The translations under genes were made by a program, and so were the position numbers. From positions 1 through 20,089 of the IMG/VR virus record IMGVR_UViG_3300032224_002167: a stretch of 20,089 nt of DNA. One strand, 5' to 3'. Shown piece by piece: positions 3,880-14,227 of the stretch (its first letter is position 1; the number at the start of each line of letters is the position of its first letter). Source of the DNA: a virus. The notes under the pieces were generated by a model that saw nothing but the letters and a program-made list of their open reading frames with translations, ran no database searches and was not told where the DNA came from.

Positions 3880-4315
3880 CACCGAAAAGAAAGAACACGC
3901 CACCCTCATCGAGAAGTGGAACGCCACCGACATCACCGCCGAACAAACCGAGCGCCTCGAACAGCTCGACGCCATCGCCGCGCTCACGCATCGCACCAGC
4001 ATCCCCGAAAGCGCCCGAAATGACCGCGAAGAAATCGTCCACGCAGCGTCCGGAGAGCTTCGCATCAAGTATGACCATGGTCAGCACGAGCACCGCACCG
4101 ACCTCCCATCCGGTGGACTCGCATGGTTCATCAACGCCACCCGCGAAGAAGCGCTCGACCTCATGGCCTACACCCACCACCTCAAAGCCAAAGCCGCATC
4201 GCTCCACGACCTCCACGAAAACATGGGAGCGCGCACCGTCACTCTCGATGAAGCCACCGCCATGCTTTGGGAAATCATCAGCGAAACGCCGCCAAGGAAG
4301 CACCCGAACTCCTAA
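3872..4315 (+). CDS. Hypothetical protein, last gene of late operon
   Basis: This encodes 147 residues of mostly polar, helical composition, with many His residues in the middle (HGQHEHRTDLP near 69-79; THHLKAKAASLHDLHE near 105-120). No recognised catalytic motif or membrane span is visible. It overlaps the previous gene by 8 bases. Its TAA stop (4313-4315) shares three bases with the TAG stop of the opposite-strand integrase gene (4312-4314), so the two genes meet tail-to-tail with no room for a terminator between them. Function unknown. Confidence 0.68.
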   Translation: MTDTEKKEHATLIEKWNATDITAEQTERLEQLDAIAALTHRTSIPESARNDREEIVHAASGELRIKYDHGQHEHRTDLPSGGLAWFINATREEALDLMAYTHHLKAKAASLHDLHENMGARTVTLDEATAMLWEIISETPPRKHPNS

Positions 4316-5451
4316 CGCGGAACGATACCCCAAAACTCTCCCGCAATTTTCCCCGTGATGATGCACCCGTCGAGCATCTTCACCGCCCGATAATGCCGGT
4401 GCAGCGTGTCCTCGCTCGCATGATGCCCGAGCATTGTTTTCAGCGCAGCCTCATCGCCGTGCATTGCAAAGTGCATCGAAGCCGCCGTGTGTCGCATCAC
4501 GTTTTTTGGCCATGGTAATTTCCAACCCGCCATCTCTCGCAAAGCCGCCCATCTCCGCTCCCATGAAAAAGGAAGCACCGCAGCGTGCCCGTCCTTCATC
4601 CATACCCGCAGCCACGCCACCGCATTTTCCGAAAGCCGCACCACCCTGCGCGCCCTGGTCTTCGCGCTCGCGCCGCTCACCACTACGATTGCGTCGTCGA
4701 GTTGAATATCGCCCGCACCCAGCTTTTCAATCTCCACCGTCCGAAGCCCCGCAAAAACACCAAGCGCCACATACGCGAGAAAGTCAGGAGCATGGTCGCG
4801 CATCACATCGAGCAGCCTGCGAGCCTGCGCCGGGGTCATGCACGAGACCTCCGTCTCATCCCGCAGCACCCGCACCTCCACGCCCTTCGTCGGGTCCATT
4901 GCAATCAACTCAGCCTTTTCCGCCATCGCAAAAAGCGCCCGCAAATCGCCGAGCTTCGAAGCCTGCGTCCTGCGCGCCCATCCACCCCCCGCAAGCCACG
5001 TTTCCAAATCCACCCGCACCACATCCACCAGCTTCACCGACTCCCGCCCGCGCGCAAACCCACGCCAAACCACCCGCAACGCGCCAAGATAAGACTCCCT
5101 AGCACCGCTCGCTCGCTTCATCTCCAGCGCCCGCTCCACCCATTCCCCGAGCGTCACCACCTCCCTGACCACTTTCGCATGGCTCAAGAAAAACTCAACC
5201 GCCTGCGAGAATCCCGCCCCGACCTTCGCTAGTCGCGCCTTCAAAAGCGCCACCTCAGCCAGCTCCCGCGGCGAAACATCACCGGCCCGTCCATGCTCCA
5301 GCCTCCCCGCCCGCATCGCATTCATCGCAGACACCGCCTCAGCCTTCGTCGAAAAATACCGCAGCACCCGCCTCTTCCCCGCCTCAAGCCGGACCACCCC
5401 ACAATCCAGCTCCCACGGTTTGCTGCGATTTTCTTTGTGTCGTATTTTCAT
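4312..5451 (-). CDS. int: Tyrosine recombinase / phage integrase
   Basis: The 379-residue protein has an N-terminal arm-binding-like region (1-90), a SAM-like core-binding domain (about 98-185, with WVERALEMKRASGARESYLG) and a C-terminal catalytic domain. Catalytic residues in order: Arg237 (AGLRTVE), Lys265 (SAKTRA), Arg320 (NVMRHTAAS), His343 (MLGHH) and the Tyr354 nucleophile (LHRHYRAV). The usual His of the HxxR box is Asn317. It catalyses site-specific recombination between attP and the host attB. The ATG at 5451 is preferred: the frame stays open to 5853, but that extension encodes low-complexity residues from the GGCTACRC repeats. A candidate attP lies just upstream. Confidence 0.92.
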   Translation of the reverse strand: MKIRHKENRSKPWELDCGVVRLEAGKRRVLRYFSTKAEAVSAMNAMRAGRLEHGRAGDVSPRELAEVALLKARLAKVGAGFSQAVEFFLSHAKVVREVVTLGEWVERALEMKRASGARESYLGALRVVWRGFARGRESVKLVDVVRVDLETWLAGGGWARRTQASKLGDLRALFAMAEKAELIAMDPTKGVEVRVLRDETEVSCMTPAQARRLLDVMRDHAPDFLAYVALGVFAGLRTVEIEKLGAGDIQLDDAIVVVSGASAKTRARRVVRLSENAVAWLRVWMKDGHAAVLPFSWERRWAALREMAGWKLPWPKNVMRHTAASMHFAMHGDEAALKTMLGHHASEDTLHRHYRAVKMLDGCIITGKIAGEFWGIVPR

Positions 5452-5460
5452 AAGAAAAGT

Positions 5461-5503
5461 GGCTACGCATCTGGCTACACTTCCCGCTACGCTTTGGCTA
5501 CAC
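5461..5503. repeat. GGCTACRC direct repeats, integrase-proximal arm
   Basis: Four octamers lie in the same orientation at 5461 (GGCTACGC), 5473 (GGCTACAC), 5485 (CGCTACGC) and 5496 (GGCTACAC), spaced 12, 12 and 11 bases, about one helical turn. They start 10 bases upstream of the integrase ATG. Arrays like this are typical of arm-type binding sites for the integrase N-terminal domain. They could instead be operators controlling integrase transcription. Confidence 0.6.
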
Positions 5504-5564
5504 TTTCTTGCACCCCGCAGCCTCCCGCAGCCCCTCCCTGCCCTACGTCCCGCCCCTGTTAAGA

Positions 5565-5585
5565 GTTGGCCGACAAGGATTCGAA
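5565..5585 (-). other. Candidate attP core (tRNA 3'-end-like)
   Basis: On the minus strand this reads TTCGAATCCTTGTCGGCCAA, which has the layout of a tRNA T-loop (TTCGAAT), the 3' half of the T-stem (CCTTG), the 3' acceptor strand (TCGGCCA) and a discriminator A. The bases on the 5' side do not complete the T-stem, so it is not a tRNA gene but could be the copied 3' end that phages carry as attP core. A U1-A72 acceptor pair would suit a tRNA-Gln-like target; that is a guess. Confidence 0.4.
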
Positions 5586-5625
5586 GGTAATCGCTGATGT
5601 TGATTTTGTGGGACTTGAGCGCAGT

Positions 5626-5645
5626 GGCTTCGCTTTTGGCTACGC
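5626..5645. repeat. GGCTWCGC direct repeats, distal arm
   Basis: Two octamers, GGCTTCGC at 5626 and GGCTACGC at 5638, repeat the sequence, orientation and 12-base spacing of the array next to integrase, but on the other side of the tRNA-like core. The core lies about 41 bases from this pair and about 62 bases from the other array. Repeats on both flanks are expected of P and P' arms of an attP. The rest of 5646-5714 shows no further motif. Confidence 0.5.
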
Positions 5646-5714
5646 TTTTTGTTTGAGTCACTACTCCTTGCCGGGGTGATGTTGGGAGACTTGGGTGGTT
5701 TTTTAGGATGGATT

Positions 5715-6149
5715 TTAAAAGCCTGCTACGTTCGGTTGTTTTTGGAAATCTTTGTCGCGCGGAATAATGAGGACGCTGATGAGAAATGTTTTTTTGTCTT
5801 CGCTCAATCCGGCCCAGAGCCGCTTTGTGTCGCCGGTGGTGCCGATGAGCCAACGCTGTCGTCCATCGGTGGTTTCAAGCTCGGTGACTTCGCGGTAGTC
5901 GGAGAGTTTGTAGAGGAGGTCGCTGACTTGGGTGTCGGTGAGCGCTTCACCGGATTCGAGGGTGTAGTATTCTTCAACCTCGACCCGCGTGTGGATGATA
6001 AAGCCGCCTTTTTTAAATACGAAGTTTTTGGACTCTCCGATTTTCGCGCCGATGGGTTGTCCAAAGCGTTTGATGAGTGCTTCTTTGTTTTCGCCTGGTC
6101 GCGCGAGCGCGGTGGACCCGATGAGCATGAGGGTGAGAATGATTTTCAT
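5715..6149 (-). CDS. Small secreted protein, possible lysogenic-conversion gene
   Basis: This encodes 144 residues with a classic signal peptide: MKI, hydrophobic core to about residue 13, and an ALA cleavage site at 14-16 before RPGENKE. The mature part (17-144) is mixed alpha/beta in appearance, with alternating strands such as NFVFKKGGFIIHTRVEVEEY and RQRWLIGTTGDTKRLWAGLS, and has no cysteine pair or catalytic motif I recognise. It would act in the periplasm or outside the cell. It has the same orientation as integrase and repressor, placing it in the block likely expressed in a lysogen. A cargo (moron) role is inferred from location and secretion only. Confidence 0.78.
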   Translation of the reverse strand: MKIILTLMLIGSTALARPGENKEALIKRFGQPIGAKIGESKNFVFKKGGFIIHTRVEVEEYYTLESGEALTDTQVSDLLYKLSDYREVTELETTDGRQRWLIGTTGDTKRLWAGLSEDKKTFLISVLIIPRDKDFQKQPNVAGF

Positions 6150-6240
6150 GGGGACACTTTACACATTGCGTTTCATCAATGCACGCGAAAAGGTTTGCCG
6201 TTCTCAAAAGCTGCGCCTATGGTTTGACGCGGGCTCCCTA

Positions 6241-6618
6241 CTACACGAAAACATCCACTTCTCGTATTTCTATCACCGTGTCTGAATGCTTTCGCGCTGA
6301 TGGGTGCGGGTCTTCCGCTCCGATAGCGGTGTCTTCGATGCCCAGCATGCGATTGATGCGCGCGAGCTGCTCATAGATGGTGTCTCGGTCGGTGATGGCC
6401 TCGACGCGGGAGAGTTTGCGAGCGTCGCGGATTTTTGTGACGATGGGTCCAAATTTGGGGACTTCTGCCTCCGCTAAAGAAAAAAACTCGGTCAAAATGC
6501 CGTCGAGCGAAGCGGTCTCGGAGCGTGACCCGAGGCATGCGCGCACTGCTCTTAATTTCTCAACTTGCGTAGGAGAAATGCGGATTTGTGGCCATTTATG
6601 AGGAGGTGCTGTTTTCAC
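6241..6618 (-). CDS. Candidate ribbon-helix-helix repressor
   Basis: With the GTG at 6618 the product is 125 residues. Residues 9-50 (WPQIRISPTQVEKLRAVRAC, then SRSETASLDGILTEFFSLAE) have the strand-helix-helix order of an Arc/MetJ-type ribbon-helix-helix domain, followed by a helical region (56-95) and a charged tail. Such proteins bind operators as dimers. It is transcribed away from the early operon, the usual place for a lysogeny repressor. I prefer GTG 6618 over ATG 6696 because a good promoter on the same strand (6656-6684) would start transcription near 6649, inside the longer version. No Shine-Dalgarno is obvious at 6618. The repressor role is inferred. Confidence 0.6.
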   Translation of the reverse strand: MKTAPPHKWPQIRISPTQVEKLRAVRACLGSRSETASLDGILTEFFSLAEAEVPKFGPIVTKIRDARKLSRVEAITDRDTIYEQLARINRMLGIEDTAIGAEDPHPSARKHSDTVIEIREVDVFV

Positions 6619-6655
6619 TGCATTTAAGAACTTAAAGAAAAAAATCTTGGGTGCA

Positions 6656-6684
6656 ATAGTAGATTTTTTGTTGCAATGTGTCAG
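6656..6684 (-). promoter_or_regulatory. Sigma70-type promoter for the repressor gene
   Basis: On the minus strand CTGACA (6684-6679) is separated by 17 bases from TACTAT (6661-6656), matching the -35 hexamer at 5 of 6 and the -10 hexamer at 4 of 6 positions with ideal spacing. The predicted transcript would start near 6649, about 30 bases before the GTG at 6618. Confidence 0.6.
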
Positions 6685-6699
6685 CACTTGCCCCATATG
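6671..6699 (+). promoter_or_regulatory. Possible early (rightward) promoter
   Basis: TTGCAA at 6671-6676 lies 17 bases before CATATG at 6694-6699. The -10 match is weak (3 of 6). The site overlaps the -35 of the minus-strand promoter, and its start point near 6706 would place the pseudoknot at the very 5' end of the transcript. TGCAAT also recurs at 6653 and 6672 and could be part of an operator. The exact promoter is uncertain. Confidence 0.3.
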
Positions 6700-6711
6700 T
6701 CATCACGTCAC

Positions 6712-6858
6712 GCGAAAACGAGACCAAATGAAAAACCTCAACACCACATCACGCAGCCTTGGAAAATATCTTGAATCCCGATCATCGGTTCAGGACTGCG
6801 CACTCCGCACTCGCGGATGTGTTGAGGTTCTCGTTTTCGCCCCGGTGGTCGGGATTCA
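6712..6858 (+). ncRNA. Predicted H-type pseudoknot in early leader
   Basis: Two long complementary pairs interlock. Helix 1 joins 6712-6723 plus 6735-6744 to 6819-6840: 22 base pairs with an 11-base bulge at 6724-6734. Helix 2 joins 6772-6788 to 6842-6858: 17 base pairs, continuous, with two G.U pairs (6782-6848 and 6785-6845). The order is 5' arm 1, 5' arm 2, 3' arm 1, 3' arm 2, with one base between the 3' arms, which is pseudoknot topology allowing coaxial stacking. The G.U pairs would be A.C mismatches on the other strand, so the plus-strand RNA is the likely functional form. The 3' end abuts the Shine-Dalgarno of the first early gene. The frame is open through it, but I regard it as a structured leader or cis-regulatory RNA. 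No known class is recognised. Confidence 0.6.
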
Positions 6859-6863
6859 GGAGG
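6858..6863 (+). promoter_or_regulatory. Shine-Dalgarno of first early gene
   Basis: AGGAGG, a full consensus site, sits 5 bases before the ATG at 6869. Its first A is also the last paired base of pseudoknot helix 2, so folding could hide or present the site. This site decides the start of the 60-residue gene over the in-frame ATG at 6729. Confidence 0.75.
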
Positions 6864-6868
6864 TAACC

Positions 6869-7051
6869 ATGAAAAAACACACAAAGAGCAGGAGGGTCAC
6901 TGGCGCAGCCGCGACGCCAACAAAAAAGAGCCGCACCCCCAGCGATGCGGGAATGGCACTAAACGCGACTACCGCTAAGAAAAAGTTTAACCCGACGTGG
7001 CTGCGCGAATTGAACGCAGCCACGTCTTTTATCGTGGGAGGTGCGAAATGA
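6869..7051 (+). CDS. Small basic early protein
   Basis: This encodes 60 residues, very rich in Lys, Arg, Ala and Thr (MKKHTKSRRVTGAAATPTKK at the start), with a less charged C-terminal 20 residues. The basic low-complexity N-terminus would suit nucleic-acid binding but no fold is recognisable. It is the first gene of the early operon, has the best Shine-Dalgarno of the region, and is preceded by the structured leader that may control it. Its stop overlaps the next start as ATGA. Function unknown. Confidence 0.65.
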   Translation: MKKHTKSRRVTGAAATPTKKSRTPSDAGMALNATTAKKKFNPTWLRELNAATSFIVGGAK

Positions 7052-9430: not shown

Positions 9431-10327
9431 ATGAACCACAAAAATAGCACCATACTCATGTCGAGACTGCTCAACTTGAGCAAACAAATGACCACTCAGC
9501 TAGAAATCTGGACGCCAGAAATGGCCAAACAAGTCCTAGACTCGCAGAACTCACAAAATAGAAAAATCAACGCAAATCACAGCAAGTCTTTGGCGTCAGA
9601 TATGTCCAATAATCGCTTTGCCGTGACCCACGAATCGATTGCATTTGATGAAACCGGAATATTGCTGGATGGCCAGCACCGCCTGCTCGCCGTCACGTTA
9701 GCAAACACAAGTGTAATTCTAAACGTGACGCGCGGGGTGCCGCGTTCGCATTTTGTAAATGGCGAGCCGCTTCCAACTTTCGAATCTATCAACTGCGGGA
9801 AGATTCGGAGCATTGCGATGACATTGCAGATGTCTGGAGTAAAGAATGCAACAAAGGTTGCATCGTGCAGTCGAGTAATAGCGCTGACCGCAGCCAGCTT
9901 GAGCTACGACAAGAAGCTGACCAATTACCAAATCCACGAGATATCTGAAATAATCGGGGAGTCACTGCACACTGTGATTTCATTATTTCCGAAAGGAACA
10001 CTGCTGCGCCCGACCTCGCCGGTTCTTGCCGCCATTACTCTTTACCACATCGTTTACCCATGCCCCGCATTGGAATTTGCGAAGCTATTGATGACAATAT
10101 CGGGTGTGCAAGATTGCCCGTCCCGCGTCCTCGCTACGTGGATTACGAATCATAGCACATCAGGTGGAGACAAGACGATTCCGTTTTTCGGAGCCGCAGC
10201 AAACGCATTGCGGTTTTTCCACGAAAACAAGCCGTGCGGAAAATTATTCAGCACCGATGCAGCCATTGATTGGATTCACGGTCTCAATCCCCATCTCCGC
10301 CGCACGATTTGTGAAGTGGTGAAATAA
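9431..10327 (+). CDS. ParB/sulfiredoxin-fold protein
   Basis: The protein has 298 residues. Residues about 43-100 carry the phage ParB-like signature: NRKINANHSKSLASDMSNNR, then FDETGILLDGQHRLLAV with DGQHRL at 80-85, as in the ParB/Srx nuclease or CTPase-type domain. The remaining 200 residues are helical and unassigned. Related phage proteins are mostly uncharacterised; DNA binding, nuclease or CTP-dependent clamp activity are the known functions of the fold. Its base composition is visibly more AT-rich than its neighbours and its leader is A-rich without Shine-Dalgarno, which suggests recent acquisition. ATG 9488 (MTTQLEIWTPEM) is an equally good start. Confidence 0.78.
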   Translation: MNHKNSTILMSRLLNLSKQMTTQLEIWTPEMAKQVLDSQNSQNRKINANHSKSLASDMSNNRFAVTHESIAFDETGILLDGQHRLLAVTLANTSVILNVTRGVPRSHFVNGEPLPTFESINCGKIRSIAMTLQMSGVKNATKVASCSRVIALTAASLSYDKKLTNYQIHEISEIIGESLHTVISLFPKGTLLRPTSPVLAAITLYHIVYPCPALEFAKLLMTISGVQDCPSRVLATWITNHSTSGGDKTIPFFGAAANALRFFHENKPCGKLFSTDAAIDWIHGLNPHLRRTICEVVK

Positions 10328-10951: not shown

Positions 10952-11878
10952 ATGAGCATCGCTGACTGCCGCTCTAAACTCCCCATGCCTGCGCTTTGGC
11001 GTATGCTTTGGCCCGGTGTGGAAGGTCCGCACGAAGGCAAGCGTGCGCAGATGGTGGTGGCTGCCTGGAGGGGGGAGAATACGCCCTCGGTGAATGTGAC
11101 GATGAATGGGGATGGATGGCTCTTTTTTGACCACGGTCAAAAGGCCGGTGGTGATGAGTTGAAGCTGGTGGAGCTGGCCCACGGGTGCGAGCGGAAGAAG
11201 GCAATGGAGATTTACCACACGATGGCTGGTGTGGAGTGGAAGACTGCCGCCGCACCTTCGGGGGATAGGAACCCGAACGCAAAGATTGTCGCGTGCTATG
11301 ATTATCTCGATGAGGCCGGAAAGCTCAAGCATCAGACTGTGCGCTTTGAGCCTGGTCTGCGTCCGGGGGAGCGGAAGTCGTTTCTCCAGCGCAGGCCCGC
11401 GCAGCCGGGGATGACTCAAGCGACTCGCTCGGGTCGCAAGGAAGCGAAGAAGGACAACCGCGATGGCCGCTGGTGGCTATGGACTCTCGAAGGGATTGAG
11501 CCGGTGCTTTTCAATCTGCCCGCCATCATGTCCACCTCGGGGGAGATATGGCTCGTGGAAGGTGAGAAGGATGCGCTCGCGCTGGGGAAATTCGGGGTGG
11601 TGGTGACGACTGCACCGATGGGTGCGAAAAATTGGAGGGAGTCCTACACGAAAGCGCTCGCGGGTCGGGACGTGGTGCTGTGCGGTGACTCGGATTCTGC
11701 GGGGGTCGCGCATCTGCTCACGGTGGGTCGCGCGCTGCGCACTGCGGGGTGCTCTGTGAGCACGATGAAGTGGGAAGCGGTGGTTGGGGAAAGCGCGACC
11801 ACGGAGAAGTGGGATGCTGCGAAATTTTTACAGGGCAACAGCGAGATCAGGCACGCGGACCTGAGACTCCCAAATTGA
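10952..11878 (+). CDS. TOPRIM primase-like protein
   Basis: The protein has 308 residues. The N-terminal part (10-95) resembles the DNA-binding region of CHC2-type primases (PMPALWRMLW, GENTPSVNVTMNGDGWLFFD, GGDELKLVELAHG) but lacks the Cys-His-Cys zinc ligands. Residues 197-292 form a TOPRIM domain: IWLVEGEKDA with Glu203, and VVLCGDSDSAG with the acidic pair Asp246/Asp248. TOPRIM primases make RNA primers. It works next to the AAA+ helicase gene at 12236, so primase and helicase are separate proteins here rather than one chain. No Shine-Dalgarno is obvious. Confidence 0.82.
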   Translation: MSIADCRSKLPMPALWRMLWPGVEGPHEGKRAQMVVAAWRGENTPSVNVTMNGDGWLFFDHGQKAGGDELKLVELAHGCERKKAMEIYHTMAGVEWKTAAAPSGDRNPNAKIVACYDYLDEAGKLKHQTVRFEPGLRPGERKSFLQRRPAQPGMTQATRSGRKEAKKDNRDGRWWLWTLEGIEPVLFNLPAIMSTSGEIWLVEGEKDALALGKFGVVVTTAPMGAKNWRESYTKALAGRDVVLCGDSDSAGVAHLLTVGRALRTAGCSVSTMKWEAVVGESATTEKWDAAKFLQGNSEIRHADLRLPN

Positions 11879-12235: not shown

Positions 12236-13813
12236 ATGCCATCTCCTCTCGATGCTCTCCGCGCTGCGCTGGTCCCATTTGATGAATGGGAGGCTGAGCA
12301 CATGGAAGCCTCGCCTGCGGTGCAGCCGGTGGTGGTGGATGGGGATTTCCGTGAGCGAATCAAGATGCCAGGGGATGGTCAGGACCCGCGAGATTTTCTG
12401 ATTGCGATGGGGAAGCTGGCCGCGCGAAATGGGTTTTACTTTCGAGCGGGTCAAGCGTGGTTTTATGACGTGAGACAGAAGATGCTCCAGCCGGTGAACT
12501 CTACGGGGTTTTGCGGGAGGATTTTGGATTTCTGCATTTTGGAGCAGTTCGCGGTGAATAAGGGTCGCGATATTTCGGTGATGATGAGCGGGGAGCTTGC
12601 AGGTCGGGTGATTGCCTCGCCGCAATTTCTCATGGAGTTGCCTGAGATTGCGCGGGTGTCGCAGGTGCCTCTTCCGGTGCTACGCAAGGGGAAGCTGCGT
12701 CTGCTTTCCGATGGGTATGATGCGGAGACTAAGACGCTGGTCATCGAGAAGATGAAGCTGCCCGAGATGTCTGCCGAGGATGCGGTCGCTGGCCTGCGCG
12801 CTCGCTGGCTCGGTGAGTTTCCGCTGAAGGACAAGGAGAAGGATTTTGCGGTGCTGGTGACGGGCATGCTCACGCCTTTCTGCGAGCTGCTCGTGCCCGC
12901 GTTCGCCACGCGCCCCGCGTTTGTTTTCACATGCAATCGCGAAGGTGGTGGGAAGACGCTCGCTGCGCGCTTGTGCCTTTGCCCGGTGCACGGGAAGGTG
13001 GAAATCACGCCGCCTCCGGAGCGGAAACATGATGCGGAACTAAAGAAGCTGCTGGGGTCGGTGGCTGCTGCGGGGAAGAGCTACATTCTTTTTGATAACT
13101 GGAAGGGTGACGTGGAATCGGGTGCGCTGGAGGGTTTCATCACCTCGAATGTGTGGAGTGACCGCACGCTGGGGAAGTCCGAGCTTTTCACTGCGGAGAA
13201 GTCGTGCCTGGTGTATGTCACCGGGAACTCTGCGAAGGTGTCGCCAGATATGCGTCGTCGTTCGCTGTTCGTCCATCTTTTCGTGGAGGAGGTGAGGACG
13301 GAGAGCAGACACATCACTCGGAGGATTGATGAGGAGGACATTTTGACCGACCGCGCTGAGCTGCTGGGGTATCTTTGGAGCATGGTGAAGCATTGGCACG
13401 CGCAAGGGATGCCCAAGGCGAGCGTGGACCACGGGAGTTTCGGGAAGTGGGGTCATGTGGTGGGAGCTATCGTGGAGGCCGCCACGGGGTCGTGCCCGCT
13501 CGTGCAAGCCGCAGATGATGGGGATGACGTGCTGAGCGCGTTTGAGAGGCTGCTGGACTTCGTGATGGAGGGCAATGACCAGGATGAAGCGCGCATCGAG
13601 CCGGGGGTGCTGCTCGATGAAGCGCGGGAGCTGGGTGGGTTTGACCGCATCGGAGAGGATGAGCCGAGTGAGCCGAGTGAGTTAAGGTCTGAGCGCATGT
13701 GGTTCGGCGCGCTGTGCAAACGATTCGTCGGGAGTAAGTTTGCAAAGTGGAGGTTCGACGCGACCACTGGCGCTCGCCAGCATCGCCGCTACATCATCAC
13801 GCGGGCCGCGTGA
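12236..13813 (+). CDS. D5-like AAA+ replicative helicase
   Basis: The protein has 525 residues. Residues 1-200 are an unassigned N-terminal region. The ATPase core follows: Walker A CNREGGGKTLAAR (Lys240, Thr241), Walker B-like SYILFDNW (282-289, Asp287 followed by Asn rather than the usual Glu), a sensor-1-like VTGNS (Asn331) and an Arg cluster DMRRRS (339-343) that could hold the Arg finger. This order fits the SF3/D5-type helicases that pair with primases in phages. The C-terminal part (430-525) includes an acidic, Ser/Pro-rich linker (EDEPSEPSELRSE) and a basic end. It probably unwinds DNA at the phage origin together with the TOPRIM protein. Confidence 0.8.
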   Translation: MPSPLDALRAALVPFDEWEAEHMEASPAVQPVVVDGDFRERIKMPGDGQDPRDFLIAMGKLAARNGFYFRAGQAWFYDVRQKMLQPVNSTGFCGRILDFCILEQFAVNKGRDISVMMSGELAGRVIASPQFLMELPEIARVSQVPLPVLRKGKLRLLSDGYDAETKTLVIEKMKLPEMSAEDAVAGLRARWLGEFPLKDKEKDFAVLVTGMLTPFCELLVPAFATRPAFVFTCNREGGGKTLAARLCLCPVHGKVEITPPPERKHDAELKKLLGSVAAAGKSYILFDNWKGDVESGALEGFITSNVWSDRTLGKSELFTAEKSCLVYVTGNSAKVSPDMRRRSLFVHLFVEEVRTESRHITRRIDEEDILTDRAELLGYLWSMVKHWHAQGMPKASVDHGSFGKWGHVVGAIVEAATGSCPLVQAADDGDDVLSAFERLLDFVMEGNDQDEARIEPGVLLDEARELGGFDRIGEDEPSEPSELRSERMWFGALCKRFVGSKFAKWRFDATTGARQHRRYIITRAA

Positions 13814-13849: not shown

Positions 13850-13865
13850 GCAAAGCGGTCACGGA

Positions 13866-13976
13866 GGTGACAGTGTGACAGTCCCATGATGTTTTCTATA
13901 TCGCTGGAGGTTCTCACGCAGATCTGCGCCTGCGTGTGTAGTGCATAGCATTGCTAGGGACTGTCACACTGTCACC
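13866..13976. repeat. Perfect 20-bp inverted repeat with structured loop
   Basis: GGTGACAGTGTGACAGTCCC at 13866-13885 is exactly complementary to 13957-13976, enclosing 71 bases. Inside lies a second hairpin, CACGCAG (13915-13921) with CTGCGTG (13930-13936). Each arm also carries a tandem GTGACA / TGTCAC. The element lies between replication and packaging genes, a common place for an origin, a terminase recognition site or a regulatory RNA. Confidence 0.75.
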
Positions 13977-14227
13977 CCCCCCCAAGCTACTACAAAGAAA
14001 GACAAGCACTTACAAAAACAGAGGGGGGGTTACACTCCCCAAAGAACTGTCACCCCCACCGTCACCCCCGTAAGCCCGCCACCCACATAAAAGGAATCTT
14101 TTTTCCTGACCCCCTGTCTCGATCGTTTTGTCGCCAAGGGAAAGTCAGAGAGAAGTGACGGGAACCTTAACGCATCCCGCCTACACCCGCTTGCGCGTTC
14201 TTGCGCGTTTGACAGCGCCCGCGCAAT

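Follow-up and report, generated by a model that had tools for sequence, protein, structure and literature searches.

The window analysed here, a virus record of 20,089 bases taken at its full length, contains a structured element between a minus-strand gene block and a plus-strand early operon. An integrase gene lies on the minus strand (4312-5853). The first gene of the early operon, ORF1 (plus strand, 6869-7051), encodes a Lys-rich protein of 60 aa without a family match; it is preceded by a plus-strand Shine-Dalgarno sequence, AGGAGG (6858-6863), and its stop codon overlaps the start of the next gene (ATGA, 7048-7051). A Toprim primase (10952-11878) and a replication ATPase/helicase-like protein (12236-13813) are encoded further along. 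The nearest named relative of the latter was found in Akkermansia phage Moulinsart (33% identity), and the replication genes link the phage to Verrucomicrobiota phages.

Scans of IMG/VR with proteins and with helix-shaped DNA patterns recovered one close relative, IMGVR_UViG_3300027754_000298 (G001; a 31-kb record, of which positions 12000-31378 are designated L014). Gene order is common to both phages, and several differences were noted. The integrase module of the window (4305-6613, the integrase plus minus-strand ORFs of 144 and 151 aa) is absent from the relative, where approximately 240 unrelated bases stand instead, and no integrase domain was found anywhere in its 31-kb record. A 298-aa gene matching phrog_5931, of unknown function (9431-10327), is missing there, while its neighbours are 92-95% identical. 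The relative's ORF1 has 34 aa, with internal deletions amounting to 26 codons (window 6886-6961; L014 13088), and the first five codons and the C-terminal end are kept. Inside the end of ORF1 in the window, positions 6994-7032 form a perfect 12-bp hairpin followed by the U-rich UUUUAU, a possible attenuator; 6 bp of this hairpin are left in the relative, which also has one C-G to A-U double change. A translation-controlled attenuator at this site was left out of our claim, the hairpin being predicted at -24.1 kcal/mol here and -4.1 kcal/mol in the relative.

Behind the helicase gene, both phages carry an iteron-type origin (window 13863-14075; L014 19106-19313). In the window its units are of the GTGACAG type in opposed arms (13867, 13875 / 13961, 13969, 14047), and the core is nearly unchanged between the phages. 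The relative's units have changed together to GGTTTACG (19109, 19117 / 19206, 19214, 19292, 19303). The two helicases are 97% identical in residues 1-440 and 52% identical in residues 441-525. Because the units changed together and the helicase diverges at 441-525, the sequences suggest that the origin repeats and the C-terminal DNA-binding domain of the helicase may have switched specificity together.

A putative early promoter, TTGCAA-17 nt-CATATG, was read by eye on the plus strand at 6671-6699 (TTGCAA 6671-6676, CATATG 6694-6699), and transcription from it would start at approximately 6704-6707. The relative has the same spacing (TTGACG-17-CAAATG). The original prediction had the transcript beginning a few bases before the first long helix of the element, and the predicted start does precede that helix, which opens at 6712; the promoter itself, however, was not listed by the consensus scan, which returned no plus-strand promoter at 6671-6699. 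Upstream of the promoter, window positions 6613-6640 are conserved with the relative and contain a near-palindrome, TTTAAGAACTTAAA (TTTAAGAATTTAAA in the relative), a possible operator.

The element itself consists of two pairs of complementary arms on the plus strand, in the interlocking order and at the positions first described. Helix 1 joins a 5' arm (6712-6723 and 6735-6744) to a 3' arm at 6819-6840, in which 6829-6840 pairs with 6712-6723 and 6819-6828 with 6735-6744. The 22 bp with an 11-nt bulge that had been proposed were borne out as 12 + 10 bp around plus-strand positions 6724-6734. This bulge is identical in the relative and holds a leader ATG at 6728-6730, a position corrected here from 6729, which is in frame with the ORF1 start at 6869. 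The open frame from this ATG continues into ORF1 without a stop in both phages. The second loop contains a small plus-strand hairpin, UCCGC-ACUC-GCGGA (6804-6818), whose sole change in the relative, C6810U, falls in the hairpin loop.

Helix 2 joins the 5' arm at 6769-6788, hereafter the anti-Shine-Dalgarno arm, to a 3' arm at 6842-6861. It had been given as 17 bp and is actually 20 bp, with three further pairs between 6769-6771 and 6859-6861 (U-A, C-G and U.G). Its non-Watson-Crick pairs are all G.U, as claimed, but number three (6771.6859, 6782.6848 and 6785.6845) rather than two; counted as plus-strand RNA, such departures account for 3 of 20 pairs here and for 5 of the relative's 23. Helix 2 was also said to stop at the first base of AGGAGG. 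Because the three extra pairs take in G6859, G6860 and A6861, it instead includes AGGA and closes the ribosome site of ORF1 (ATG 6869). The Shine-Dalgarno sequence is conserved in the relative, where the helix lengthens to 23 bp and covers the whole AGGAGG.

A competing local hairpin, P3, was found in the minimum-energy fold of the plus-strand RNA (6752-6756/6796-6800, 6769-6775/6789-6795 and 6778-6781/6785-6788), where it occupies the 5' arm of helix 2. Its partner strand, UUCAGGA at 6789-6795, repeats the sequence of the Shine-Dalgarno stretch at 6855-6861 (UUCAGGA). This UUCAGGA is identical in the relative, but its partner there lies slightly upstream of 6769.

The view that such pairing would be very unlikely by chance was upheld by dinucleotide shuffling of 6704-6870. 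No continuous stem in 118,599 shuffles matched helix 2 in strength, and interlocked stems that were both at least as strong as the weaker segment of helix 1 appeared in one of the 118,599. The minimum-energy fold of 6700-6880 lay 4.1 standard deviations below shuffles (z = -4.1). In a joint scan of 12 sequences, 10 related loci alongside the window and the relative, interlocked pairs this strong were encountered only in the two elements. Across 488 kb of window and related phage and prophage DNA, with both strands counted, helix 2 was the strongest stem overlapping a Shine-Dalgarno sequence in each of the two phages.

We examined conservation between the two phages across this region. Over 179 nt, the plus-strand block at 6704-6882, comprising the 5' untranslated region and the first ORF1 codons, matches the relative at 96.1% identity. 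Scored per 12 nt, identity is 33-75% in 6636-6707, 83-100% in 6708-6875 and 0-75% in 6876-6959, falling to 0-67% downstream of approximately 6888. From this profile, the conserved block runs from near the predicted start of transcription through the fifth ORF1 codon. Third codon positions in nearby genes diverge more (41 of 335) than the leader does (7 of 165 positions; p = 0.0035); among coding genes elsewhere, 17% of 165-nt windows equal or exceed the leader in conservation. Conservation of the reading frame instead of the pairing had been named as an observation that would count against an RNA element. The leader changes stand at 1 synonymous to 6 nonsynonymous compared to 365 to 194 in the phage's genes, so that 6 of 7 alter an amino acid in the leader frame as against 194 of 559 (p = 0.009), and thus the leader frame is not what is conserved.

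The pairing is largely kept, with 1 of 42 pairs broken in the relative. This single loss is in helix 1, where G6821U breaks the pair C6742-G6821. In helix 2, C6770U turns a C-G pair into U.G and keeps it, and A6768C adds a C-G pair, giving the 23-bp helix. C6757U removes a mismatch in the local hairpin, and the remaining 3 of the 7 leader changes fall in loops, which are nearly as conserved as the stems. Avoidance of paired sites is weak and not significant (2 of 84 paired against 5 of 66 unpaired sites changed; p = 0.24), and the two sequences, 96% identical, contain no compensatory double changes.

The two helices were then compared as alternative folds. Nested folds of the window reach -63.1 kcal/mol with helix 1 and -57.8 kcal/mol with helix 2, and those of the relative -60.4 and -59.8 kcal/mol, so that the fold of helix 1 plus P3 and the fold of helix 2 are predicted to lie 0.6-5.3 kcal/mol apart. 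In the helix-1 fold the helix-2 5' arm is tied up in P3 by the UUCAGGA partner. The nested model has this open state dominating in the window, with a helix-2 probability of approximately 0.001 (0.10 in the relative). Removal of the 5' arm of helix 1 makes helix 2 the predicted fold, and when a ribosome footprint is masked at the leader ATG, the nested model loses helix 1 and shifts toward helix 2. In folds of successive prefixes, helix 1 is already present at a stage when the 3' arm of helix 2 has yet to be made. The Shine-Dalgarno sequence is thus paired in one predicted state (AGGA here, the whole AGGAGG in the relative), and the competing structure that would free it, helix 1 plus P3, is present by prediction only.

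Coexistence of both helices was assessed by a rough energy sum, which gave -58 to -73 kcal/mol depending on the assumed penalty, compared to -63 kcal/mol for the nested fold. A pseudoknot is sterically possible, since the 24-nt loop reaches approximately 150 A where approximately 118 A is needed. The nested alternatives are nearly isoenergetic with the rough pseudoknot estimate; both helices may coexist as a pseudoknot, and a two-state switch fits equally well.

Similar elements were sought in several collections. The original prediction recognised no known class, and this view held when Rfam was searched: no Rfam 15 family exceeded its gathering threshold in the window, no known aptamer (riboswitch) family was matched, and a permissive scan of 6600-6960 returned only a chance microRNA match (E 9.1). 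DNA searches found no relative of the element in GenBank phages and a single 25-nt chance match in plasmids. A search of 388 Verrucomicrobiota genomes with the element gave matches that were short and weak (E 8e-4 to 7e-3); those examined, eight in number, were short single pieces that look like chance. Gene 2 gave nothing convincing in the same 388 genomes, and the helicase matched in 22 of them. The best helicase match, G031, was set aside as an Akkermansia-phage-type helicase (34% identical to that of the window) with no shared leader region. No similar element was found in the distant IMG/VR relatives or in Akkermansia phage Moulinsart.

Several known leaders share parts of this arrangement. 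The repZ leader of ColIb-P9 (IncI-alpha) was the subject of a 1998 study by Asano and Mizobuchi (cited in PMC10724649). A short pseudoknot in that leader reportedly activates translation under control of an antisense RNA. The element here resembles it in having a leader frame (RepY in ColIb-P9), a Shine-Dalgarno sequence hidden in a stem and, as a candidate, a pseudoknot. It differs in its long stems, in a leader frame that runs into ORF1 without a stop and in that no antisense RNA was seen. In the MS2 maturation-gene leader and in aapA/hok-type toxin mRNAs, metastable hairpins act as transient structures that set when translation is possible (PMC6733600). Local and long-range pairings likewise appear to compete here for the anti-Shine-Dalgarno arm, whereas this leader belongs to the early operon of a DNA phage and its long-range pairing interlocks with a second long helix.

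The leader pseudoknot of the T4 gene 32 type was described in a 2010 review as perhaps the only viral pseudoknot in translational autoregulation (PMC3014915). In T4 the pseudoknot is small and coaxial, lies 67 nt upstream of the start codon and acts as the seed for gp32 binding; ribosome sites of this type are unstructured and A+U-rich with UUAA(A) repeats (PMC3014915). The element shares with it a pseudoknot, here a candidate, in a phage mRNA leader upstream of an initiation region whose translation it would control. In contrast, the stems here measure 20-22 bp, and a G-rich ribosome site, AGGAGGUAACC, lies within helix 2. The first gene encodes the 60-aa Lys-rich protein without a family match in place of a protein that binds single-stranded DNA and the leader, and no single-strand binding protein is known to take part. 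As modelled, the element would belong to the broad kind of translational switches that close a Shine-Dalgarno sequence, and it lacks the defining features of the T4 gene 32 type.

The earlier proposal of a cis-acting leader RNA heading the early operon is supported by the limits of the conserved block, by the unconserved leader frame and by helix 2 hiding the Shine-Dalgarno sequence. A part in deciding entry into the lytic operon, also put forward in that proposal, is conjectural. We consider it somewhat better than an even bet that 6704-6882 acts in cis as a regulatory leader on the early mRNA, governing translation of ORF1 and, through the ATGA overlap, of the next gene, with helix 2 as the closed state, P3 inside helix 1 as the opposed state, and an order of opening and then closing. 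It probably serves as an RNA switch in the translation of early genes, with a design that is without a match in the databases searched. Counting against this reading are the poor conservation of ORF1 itself, the lost pair in helix 1, the absence of compensatory changes and, in the window, the dominance of the open state in the nested model. We infer transcription from the promoter drawn here, together with the folding order and the direction, timing and trigger of control. Helix 2 (20 bp here, 23 bp in the relative) would cover the Shine-Dalgarno sequence when the leader is closed; when it is open, the anti-Shine-Dalgarno arm would be held in P3 inside helix 1. As transcription proceeds, P3 and helix 1 can be the first to form, so that new transcripts may start open and close later, either as a pseudoknot or through refolding. 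The outcome would be a burst of early translation followed by shut-off, and the switch could be reset by a factor, by RNase III or by a ribosome on the leader ORF. This open-then-close timer is the version we prefer, by analogy with MS2 and the metastable hairpins of PMC6733600.

Other explanations account for parts of these observations. The helices could serve as substrates of RNase III, or form a 5' cap for the protection or maturation of the early mRNA, with translation control as a by-product. Helices of 22 and 20 bp, each two helical turns, with near-perfect pairing would suit RNase III, and so would the location in an early leader; the lambda N leader and T7 early RNA contain processing or stability elements of this sort. 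Such a role, however, does not require helix 2 to overlap the Shine-Dalgarno sequence exactly, nor does it call for the UUCAGGA copy or for conservation of the loops, and we regard it as unlikely. That the repeats act as DNA, as an operator, attachment site or replication origin, is an idea suggested by the nearby integrase gene (4312-5853) and the position between opposed transcription units. Yet the relative keeps the element though the integrase module (4305-6613) is absent there, a separate iteron-type origin lies at 13863-14075, the departures from pairing read as G.T on just one of the strands, and the conserved block matches the limits of a transcript leader plus initiation region. A DNA role is decidedly unlikely on this account, and an attP reading in particular was rejected, as the element does not travel with the integrase gene.

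A reading in which the frame itself (6728-7051) is the gene, encoding a 107-aa protein from ATG 6728 or a leader peptide that explains the conservation, draws on the frame being open from 6728 through ORF1 in both phages and on the exposure of its ATG in the helix-1 bulge. The excess of amino-acid-altering changes over the pair's pooled genes, the strong Shine-Dalgarno sequence at ORF1, 141 nt downstream, and the lack of a family match for the ORF1 part make it highly improbable. The near-equal conservation of loops and stems and the long stable structure would also suit a stand-alone structured phage non-coding RNA acting in trans and ending at ORF1 by happenstance. Against this, no plus-strand terminator was found directly after the element, which abuts and includes the ORF1 initiation region and has no Rfam match, and we give such an RNA only a slim chance.

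A more specific proposal is made tentatively, as a minority possibility: the element may represent a new class of RNA in phage early leaders. Such an RNA would combine two stems of approximately 20 bp, interlocked as one large pseudoknot so as to close ribosome access to the first gene, with an internally copied Shine-Dalgarno stretch and a bulge displaying a start codon, and would serve as a timer or sensor of early translation. If this is true, a far larger pseudoknot closing the ribosome site would widen the T4 gene 32-type kind, and the element would offer a compact system for testing whether phages time their early genes through RNA refolding.
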